From: Methanobacteriota archaeon
Lineage (GTDB): Archaea; Thermoplasmatota; Poseidoniia; Poseidoniales; Thalassarchaeaceae
DNA: 46,141 nt
Direction: 5' to 3'
NCBI GenBank assembly: GCA_002726275.1
Contig: PBSO01000033.1
Span: forward strand, 1-46,141
Positions 11,913 through 13,446 of the stretch are shown here, in pieces. How positions within the stretch are numbered: position 1 is the first letter of the stretch; every line of letters starts with the position of its first letter. The position numbers were made by a program, and so were the translations under genes. The notes beneath the pieces were generated by a model. The model did not search any database. It saw only the letters and a list, made by a program, of their open reading frames with translations, and was not told where the DNA came from.

Positions 11913-12176
11913 ATGGCTATCGAGAGTTCCAATGTAGGTCCCATTGAAGAGACCGTGCAGGGCTGGCAAGATGGCATAGAAGGACGTGTCAAAAGCCTCC
12001 AAACAGGTTCCTACGCAAGGATTTTGAAGATGGCTAGGAAGCCTTCGAAGCAGGAGTTCAGACAGACCGTCATTGTTTGTGGCATAGGGATGTTCGTTCT
12101 GGGCTTCATAGGATTCGCTATGCTATGGGCAATGGATACTGCTCTACCCAAGTTCTTCGCATGGCTGATTAACTAG
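11913..12176 (+). CDS. secE: Protein translocase SecE/Sss1 gamma subunit
   Basis: An 87-residue, single-span membrane protein. The amphipathic surface helix (about 27-55, SYARILKMARKPSKQEFRQ) followed by one C-terminal transmembrane helix (about 56-76) is the SecE/Sss1 gamma plan. The helix clamps SecY in the translocon. Its place between ftsZ and spt5 is the conserved archaeal location. The ~30-residue N-terminal extension is slightly longer than in many archaeal homologues. It is followed after 8 bp by spt5, whose ribosome-binding site (AGGTGA) overlaps the end of this gene. Confidence 0.93.
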   Translation: MAIESSNVGPIEETVQGWQDGIEGRVKSLQTGSYARILKMARKPSKQEFRQTVIVCGIGMFVLGFIGFAMLWAMDTALPKFFAWLIN

Positions 12177-12184
12177 GTGAAAAT

Positions 12185-13084
12185 ATGTCTGATGCATTTG
12201 TTGCTTACGTCCGCCATGGAGAAAAGGTCCTATTGATGCAGAGAGCGGACGAAGTGGCCGATTTCCCCGGTGCATGGGATGGTGTCTACGGAGTCGGTGA
12301 TTCAGATGACTTGGACTCTGTTGCTGCGAGAATCTCAGAGACCACCGGAATCGGTGCCGAGAGCCTGACTTTCGTTCGATCGGGTGATGCAAGGGGGCTT
12401 GAATTCGGCAATAGGCTCAATGATGTGACTCCATTGCTTTTCCTGAGTGACAGTGAGACTGTCGAGGCTCGTGGGCTCTACAAGAACTTCAGCTGGGTCG
12501 ACCCTGGGTACATCAACTGGGTAGAGCCTGCAGATACGTCGGACAGCAGGTCTTCTAGGTACATGGTTCCACAACTGGGCAATATGTATGGAGACGTCGC
12601 ATCTTTCCTTTACATTCTGAAGACCAGTATGGGGCAAGAGCAGAACGTTGCAAGGGAAATTCGTGCTCGCCTATCCGGAACAGGTTCACTAAAGGACATC
12701 CAGGACAAGATCTTCGGCGTTCTCAGTCCCAGTTACCTCAAGGGATTCGTATTCATCGAGGCTACTGCACTTCATCACGTCGAGAAGCTGATAGGGAGAG
12801 TGGGCGTTTCCGCTACCCCGATGAAGAACTGCCGCAAGGTTCTGGACGGCGAGTCTCCACTGCGTGACATTCTCCCATACCTAGAGCCGAAGGCAGCTAC
12901 TGCGGGAATTGAGGAAGGTAACATCGTAGAAATTAGAGGCGGTGCATTCAAGGGGGCCACTGCTAGAGTAATAGGGGTTAGCGAGAGTAAGGAGGAGGTA
13001 ACTGTGGAGCTGTTCGAAGCGGCTGTTCCAGTGGCCCTTAACATCAGAGCTGACCAAGTTAGAGTCACTCAGAGAGTGGAGTGA
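12185..13084 (+). CDS. spt5: Transcription elongation factor Spt5 with an N-terminal degenerate Nudix domain
   Basis: Archaeal Spt5 is normally ~150 residues: an NGN domain that binds RNA polymerase and Spt4, plus one KOW domain. Here residues about 141-233 (FLYILKTSMGQEQNVA to DILPYLEPK) are NGN and about 240-296 are KOW (GNIVEIRGGAFKGATARV). Residues 1 to about 118 are an additional domain with a Nudix fold pattern: VAYVRHGEKVLLMQR, FPGAWDGVYG, an AARISETTGI helix and a final FSWVDP. The Nudix catalytic box is degenerate: in the ARISETTGI segment that aligns with REUxEExGU only one of the key glutamates is kept. Thus it is probably a binding domain rather than a hydrolase. There is no stop or start between the parts, and the linker is about 20 residues. 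It sits between secE and the ribosomal genes as usual. Confidence 0.93.
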   Translation: MSDAFVAYVRHGEKVLLMQRADEVADFPGAWDGVYGVGDSDDLDSVAARISETTGIGAESLTFVRSGDARGLEFGNRLNDVTPLLFLSDSETVEARGLYKNFSWVDPGYINWVEPADTSDSRSSRYMVPQLGNMYGDVASFLYILKTSMGQEQNVAREIRARLSGTGSLKDIQDKIFGVLSPSYLKGFVFIEATALHHVEKLIGRVGVSATPMKNCRKVLDGESPLRDILPYLEPKAATAGIEEGNIVEIRGGAFKGATARVIGVSESKEEVTVELFEAAVPVALNIRADQVRVTQRVE

Positions 13085-13167: not shown

Positions 13168-13446
13168 ATGTCAGCACGTAACGAGACACCTCACAAGATC
13201 ATCCAGTCAATGGGCAAGCAGAAGTGCAATGGCTCATGGGAGGAGGCTTCCGAGAATCTTACCATGGACCAAGTCAAGAAGCTGGCTGAGGACCAATCAG
13301 ACAGGCTCACTGGTGCTAATCTGTACGCAAAGTGCCGTGAAATCATGGGCACGTGTGTTTCCATGAGGGTTAACGTCGAGGGCATGCCCCCGAAGGAAGC
13401 TCTCGCTGCTATGAGCAAGGGGGACTTCGCTGAGCATTTCGCATAA
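13168..13446 (+). CDS. rpl11: Ribosomal protein uL11, C-terminal rRNA-binding domain only
   Basis: A 92-residue protein. From about residue 7 it matches the C-terminal half of archaeal uL11: ENLTMDQVKKLAEDQ, GANLYAKCREI, MGTCVSMRVNVEG. Archaeal uL11 is normally ~160 residues, and its N-terminal domain (with the PPLGPALG-type segment) contacts translation factors at the GTPase centre. That domain is absent. An in-frame TGA (13162-13164) lies just before the ATG and only 83 bases separate it from spt5, too little for ~70 missing codons in any frame. The usually conserved Gly of the SMG segment is Arg here. It lies exactly where uL11 should be, upstream of uL1, uL10 and bL12-like genes. Confidence 0.88.
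   Translation: MSARNETPHKIIQSMGKQKCNGSWEEASENLTMDQVKKLAEDQSDRLTGANLYAKCREIMGTCVSMRVNVEGMPPKEALAAMSKGDFAEHFA

Follow-up and report, generated by a model that had tools for sequence, protein, structure and literature searches.

What is a Nudix domain doing at the N-terminus of an archaeal Spt5? This question is raised by the spt5 gene of the window, by which we mean the whole 46,141-nucleotide stretch of DNA that was analysed. Of the transcription factors that associate with RNA polymerase, Spt5/NusG has been described as the only one conserved universally, and its archaeal form as one NGN domain followed by one KOW domain (PMC3382729). Relative to this reference architecture, the Spt5 encoded in the window has about 137 extra N-terminal residues, ~112 of which make up a Nudix fold (PMC3382729). 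The features of the gene and its surroundings are listed in Table 1.

Table 1. Coordinates of spt5, its domains and its adjoining elements in the window.
Feature	Position	Strand	Evidence
spt5, Nudix-NGN-KOW fusion, 299 aa + stop	12185..13084	+	ATG-start ORF; TIGR00405; frame kept in relatives
Shine-Dalgarno-like aggtga directly 5' of the fused ATG	12171..12184	+	sequence; motif conservation in orthologues
Degenerate Nudix domain, residues 1 to about 112	12185..12520	+	AlphaFold, Foldseek, hhalign, Pfam NUDIX in 28/47 orthologues
Degenerate Nudix box, residues 36-56, GVGDSDDLDSVAARISETTGI	12290..12352	+	column comparison, 24-26 active relatives
Arg49, position of the catalytic Glu in the motif	12329..12331	+	Arg in 114/117
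Variable linker, residues about 113-137	12521..12595	+	alignment; mean 20% identity between both families
NGN domain (expected RNA polymerase clamp binding), residues 142-205	12608..12799	+	Pfam PF03439 4.2e-10; Foldseek 3p8b
KOW domain, residues 245-275	12917..13009	+	Pfam PF00467 5.4e-5
secE, immediate 5' neighbour of spt5	11913..12176	+	Pfam PF00584 7.8e-6

The window protein was confirmed as a genuine Spt5 with an in-frame Nudix-fold domain at its N-terminus. With archaeal Spt5 proteins such as that of P. furiosus (PDB ID: 3p8b), it shares the NGN and KOW domains, the secE and ribosomal neighbours, the Spt4 partner, and a match to TIGR00405, the NCBIfam Spt5 equivalog (residues 143-297, E-value of 1.4e-29, over the cut-off). 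Because the neighbouring genes encode FtsZ, SecE, uL11, uL1, uL10, and P1/L12, the gene lies in the conserved secE-spt5-ribosomal locus, just as a preliminary description of this DNA, made from its letters, had placed it. A Foldseek search with the full-length AlphaFold model, the NGN part of which is of low confidence, gave the P. furiosus structure as the best match (E-value of 1.1e-10), with Nudix proteins coming next. Moreover, Spt4 (PF06093) is encoded in 40 of 40 relatives, the genome of the window included, and so the NGN domain very probably works in its usual complex; that it would also bind the clamp of RNA polymerase is what membership of the family leads one to expect.

By its modelled fold and by sequence homology, the N-terminal domain belongs to the Nudix superfamily. 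The AlphaFold model of residues 1-119 (from 47 orthologues) has a pLDDT of 88.5, and when it was submitted to Foldseek, all 50 of the PDB matches listed were Nudix proteins (query-normalised TM of up to 0.72), including NudI, MutT from M. mazei (PDB ID: 3grn), RppH, Ap4A hydrolases, NudC, and NrtR. In hhalign, the profile of the domain aligned over its whole length (110 columns) with that of 24 active Nudix relatives, at 99.3% probability and an E-value of 1.5e-20. Together, these results bear out the catalytically degenerate Nudix domain that the preliminary description had put forward, and the structure prediction it had suggested for the N-terminal residues did return that fold. The HMM searches, likewise suggested there, found the NGN and KOW domains, but gave a divided answer for NUDIX (PF00293), which was matched by 28 of 47 diverse orthologues (best E-value of 2.4e-5) and not from the window sequence itself: a Pfam scan of its N-terminal part gave no match, nor did a Nudix domain show up when the window protein was scanned directly against Pfam and NCBIfam. 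Since the PDB search by sequence profile alone was marginal (best E-value of 0.02, NADH pyrophosphatase), the claim about the fold rests on the hhalign comparison and the model.

Members of the active family have five invariant Glu residues: one follows the SG turn, one is the RE Glu, two make up the EE pair, and the last belongs to the DWE(H/N) motif. Of these, the Spt5 domain retains one, E52. Hence, the loss of key Glu residues noted in the preliminary description stands, though not their number, as four rather than two are gone. In the window, the REUxEExGU stretch reads A-R-I-S-E-T-T-G-I (x-R-[IV]-x-E-[CSAVT]-T-G-[IL] across orthologues), the Nudix box is two residues shorter than the canonical one, and the active-enzyme pattern Gx5Ex7REUxEExGU with its metal-binding Glu is not found. 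Among 117 distinct genes, the catalytic (RE) Glu position is occupied by Arg49 in 114, and residue 52 is Glu in 102 and Asp in 8. At residue 53, where the EE pair has its second Glu, Glu never occurs, and C, S, A, V, or T is seen instead; the downstream Glu of DWEH is likewise replaced, at residue 98, by L, I, R, or V. R10, D32, Y99, and D106 are invariant (117/117) among the fused forms but not in the parent family, with R49 and G71 coming close to this; the conserved R20, W31, G33, P83, and W104 are inherited from the active family. Over 116 pairs, the Nudix part has a median dN/dS of 0.067 and NGN-KOW one of 0.014. At the protein level, the former evolves about fivefold faster, and the mean identity between both Poseidoniales families is 44% for the Nudix part, 59% for NGN-KOW, and 20% for the linker. 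Taken together, the lost Glu residues, the new invariants, and the dN/dS of 0.067 describe a domain under selection but without its catalytic residues. A Nudix enzyme deprived of those metal-ligand Glu residues should be inactive, and we infer from the alignment columns that the fused domain would have no hydrolytic activity.

The survey for the same fusion that the preliminary description had called for succeeded within the order and came up empty beyond it. Here, the Nudix-Spt5 fusion was found in 116 of 125 sampled Poseidoniales genomes, in both families and all 21 sampled genera, a count obtained from 123 matches of the N-terminal domain among 146 genomes at class level by excluding seven standalone proteins of the sister family f3; it was not found in 20 Spt5 ORFs from other Thermoplasmatota families. 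The nine Poseidoniales genomes without the fusion have an undetectable Spt5 or only contig-end fragments of it, and in no sampled Poseidoniales genome was loss of the Nudix domain from Spt5 detected. According to the literature, the Poseidoniales comprise two families, Thalassarchaeaceae and Poseidoniaceae. The matching GTDB contigs bear names including Candidatus Thalassarchaeum and Candidatus Poseidoniales, and our families f1 and f2 would correspond to Thalassarchaeaceae and Poseidoniaceae, respectively, and f3 to the sister order that often goes by the name of Marine Group III. The Spt5 of f3 has just a short acidic tail before its NGN domain. Two further variations were seen within the order. 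Two loci of genus g3 in the family of the window (L157 and L159) have an extra acidic low-complexity segment of ~55-60 aa before the Nudix domain, which other g3 members lack, and in f2 the NGN region of Spt5 ends with an additional GRDPKARRG-like segment of ~9 residues (alignment A1, columns about 231-242; e.g. L111, L114, and L120) that is absent in f1.

The continuous frame claimed in the preliminary description was likewise upheld. The fused protein is present in the genomes of 57 of 60 relatives, with its Nudix and Spt5 parts in one stop-free frame wherever the gene is complete, and the frame across the fusion is open in every spanning relative (48-95% identity), which excludes the stop in related genomes that had been proposed as a refutation. 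As the fusion is also seen in single-cell assemblies (AG-/AH- isolate names: L076, L077, L087, L088, L091, and L092) and in a one-contig genome of 2.06 Mb (G037, L125), an artefact of assembly or frame is ruled out. Could the two parts still be translated separately, from an internal start at Met134, and so not be a functional fusion? Codon 134 is indeed ATG in 108 of 117 genes, yet a Shine-Dalgarno-like motif precedes it in 3% of them, compared with 85% (GAGGTGA-like) for the fused start. Moreover, the nine other genes have a Leu codon at that position, which in seven of them is none of ATG, GTG, and TTG, and no stop or frameshift lies between the Nudix and Spt5 parts. Separate translation is therefore unlikely, in fact the least probable of all the readings we weighed.

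As to the origin of the domain, its profile finds relatives across the phylum Thermoplasmatota. In the 20 non-Poseidoniales loci examined, these are standalone Nudix proteins of ~135 aa or C-terminal domains behind an AcnX swivel domain, and none is attached to Spt5; with the 20 Spt5 ORFs of other families also lacking a match to the Nudix profile, the same fusion elsewhere in the phylum was rejected. This phylum-wide family aligns with the Spt5 domain over its full length and has R20, W31, G36, TG, P83, W104, and P107 in common with it, but differs in possessing an intact Nudix box with all five invariant Glu. Maximum-likelihood analysis united the fused domains in a single group (100/100 support), set off by a long stem of 2.6 changes per column, whereas the sampled standalone Nudix proteins of Poseidoniales grouped elsewhere in the tree. 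When the genome of the window was searched with the parent-family profile, the fused domain was the best match (1.5e-14), followed by another Nudix protein (1.6e-8). From this match and the separate tree group, the parent seems to survive in Poseidoniales only in fused form. The simplest reading of these sequence relationships would be a single fusion in the Poseidoniales ancestor, followed by fast early change. A viral source was rejected, as no relative was found among viral contigs.

The gene contexts of the parent family differ among lineages, its members lying beside a PIN-ATPase-KH gene, fused to an AcnX swivel domain beside AcnX, or, in f3, beside an L10e-like gene. In families f5 and f29, the standalone gene is directly 3' of the PIN-ATPase-KH gene (L245:136-2318, L241:25-2162, and L246:1856-4085), which suggests that the two may form an operon there. 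An AcnX-swivel-type protein bears an intact Nudix domain at its C-terminus in several families (L228, L231-L238, and L242-L244; e.g. L237:1572-2441), and in L237 the gene for the AcnX large subunit adjoins that of the fusion. The swivel domain in these fusions is of the phosphomevalonate dehydratase small-subunit type (archaeal mevalonate pathway type), suggestive of an unstudied Nudix partner of that enzyme.

Within Spt5, the dead domain with its new invariants probably now serves the transcription machinery as a sensor or as a docking module, a ligand pocket being the most likely and protein docking almost as likely. Our main reading, to which we would assign a probability of roughly 0.4, combines the single acquisition of a Nudix domain by Spt5 with repurposing of its old cleft as a predicted non-catalytic pocket for an anionic ligand. 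In such a scheme, the Spt5 of the Poseidoniales ancestor would have gained, once and at its N-terminus, a domain of the phylum-wide archaeal family, which would no longer hydrolyse its ligand and would use the old cleft for binding. Arg49, in place of a metal-binding Glu, might together with R10, D32, Y99, and D106 bind the anionic ligand without a metal, and this ligand could be a free nucleotide or alarmone, a phosphate, or else the phosphate-rich 5' end of nascent RNA. The variable linker would tether the domain to the NGN domain on the polymerase clamp, and binding would be signalled to the elongating polymerase or its partners, as with the dead Nudix domains of CFIm25 and CCAR2. The functional proposal of the preliminary description, in which a nucleotide or RNA end is sensed and the signal reaches the polymerase or the ribosome, would be in keeping with the altered residues of the pocket, with docking fitting about equally well. 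Against this pocket, it can be held that the conserved R20, W31, G33, P83, and W104 were simply inherited, that the Nudix part changes so much faster than NGN-KOW, and that Arg49 could form an internal salt bridge (e.g. with D32) and thereby close the pocket. We regard as doubtful the more far-reaching proposal of a ligand-gated Spt5, whose metal-free Nudix pocket would respond to a nucleotide signal or to a nascent RNA's 5' end by altering elongation or polymerase-ribosome coupling, as part of a wider, unrecognised habit among Thermoplasmatota of placing different N-terminal regulatory domains on Spt5.

Alternatively, the dead Nudix domain might have no small ligand and serve as a protein docking module that recruits a partner (the ribosome, a termination factor, a chromatin protein, or the polymerase) to the Spt4/5-polymerase complex, its conserved residues then accounting for fold stability or a binding face. 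Such a role, tentative as well, would suit the location of the domain, which lies at the free terminus of a factor bound to the polymerase and is connected through a variable linker, and its faster evolution fits a lineage-specific interface. Other Thermoplasmatota, moreover, put unrelated domains or acidic tails on this end of Spt5 too, suggesting that the common need is for a platform at the N-terminus and not for Nudix chemistry. However, it is within or close to the former active-site motifs that the new invariants are found, and there is no evident reason why a pure scaffold should have an almost invariant Arg in place of the catalytic Glu. An enzyme of altered chemistry, with E52 and either D39 or D106 as metal ligands, is improbable. 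While some Nudix proteins work with atypical boxes, residue 52 (first Glu of the EE pair) is Glu or Asp in 110 of 117, and D39 and D106 are common or invariant, this reading has to contend with the replacement of the RE Glu by Arg, of the second EE Glu by C/S/A/V/T, and of the DWEH Glu by L/I/R/V, as well as with the shortened box. More improbable still is a relic of little function that is merely carried along by its fusion to an essential gene. Faster evolution than the rest of the protein and a poorly conserved linker would agree with it, but the dN/dS of the domain, the invariance of residues across two families, and the fact that no loss of it was detected in the sampled genomes, when in-frame loss of a dispensable domain would be easy, largely refute it.

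Several known systems offer a likeness to the predicted pocket. NUDT21/CFIm25, which takes part in mRNA 3' processing, has an inactive Nudix domain that binds RNA or Ap4A (PMC7705103). Like the Spt5 domain, it is a catalytically inactive Nudix domain in the service of the transcription or RNA machinery, but it is a separate protein of the cleavage complex and not fused to an elongation factor, and no specific sequence relationship between the two was found. The Nudix domain of CCAR2/DBC1 is devoid of the acidic residues, but binds NAD+ and regulates the binding of partners, and CCAR2 functions together with Pol II during elongation (PMC10474295). In contrast to Spt5, CCAR2 is a eukaryotic multidomain protein lacking NGN and KOW, and would be of independent origin. 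NrtR, a Nudix and winged helix repressor that is among the fold matches listed (PDB ID: 3gz8), employs Nudix as a ligand sensor in a transcription regulator, though it binds DNA operators and not the polymerase. Here, we take a ligand sensor in the manner of CFIm25 and CCAR2 as a working analogy for the Spt5 domain and claim no membership. No published description of a Spt5/NusG-Nudix fusion was found in a literature of incomplete coverage, and a search on Spt5 in Poseidoniales gave nothing relevant; a survey of Spt5 evolution (PMC13289920) leaves Nudix unmentioned.

The statement in the preliminary description that archaeal Spt5 normally consists of NGN plus KOW only agrees with the review cited above, but does not hold for many lineages of the phylum, which have another N-terminal extension. 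In several other Thermoplasmatota families, the Spt5 ORFs are about 270-420 codons long, and the 20 copies examined there have, at their N-terminus, either acidic low-complexity tails or an unrelated and apparently beta-rich domain of ~100-130 residues that includes a motif around PxGAxxxD (L248-L258, L260-L262, L265, and L266). This beta-rich-looking domain gave no significant Pfam match. N-terminal accretion is thus not unique to Poseidoniales; by comparison of these sequences, additions to this end of Spt5 recur in Thermoplasmatota, and the Nudix domain is the Poseidoniales version. What had been taken as a minimal protein, the archaeal Spt5, is a core factor that gained a new module, apparently from a single origin and across an order of abundant surface-ocean archaea. 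The domain offers a small test object for direct nucleotide control of archaeal transcription elongation and, given the different domains in related orders, the N-terminus of Spt5 is a place to look for lineage-specific regulation.

As a separate observation, the gene after spt5 (13168-13446, + strand) encodes a uL11 of 92 aa that consists of the C-terminal RNA-binding domain only, and a similarly short uL11 occurs in ten other loci (L031, L044, L053, L101, L111, L112, L118, L125, L188, and L190). The uL11 N-terminal domain (PF03946) had no match anywhere in 68 Poseidoniales genomes, but was found in 18 of 21 genomes of the sister family f3 and in 14 of 14 control genomes. Its absence and the Spt5 fusion have the same distribution, as a co-occurrence at the level of genomes.
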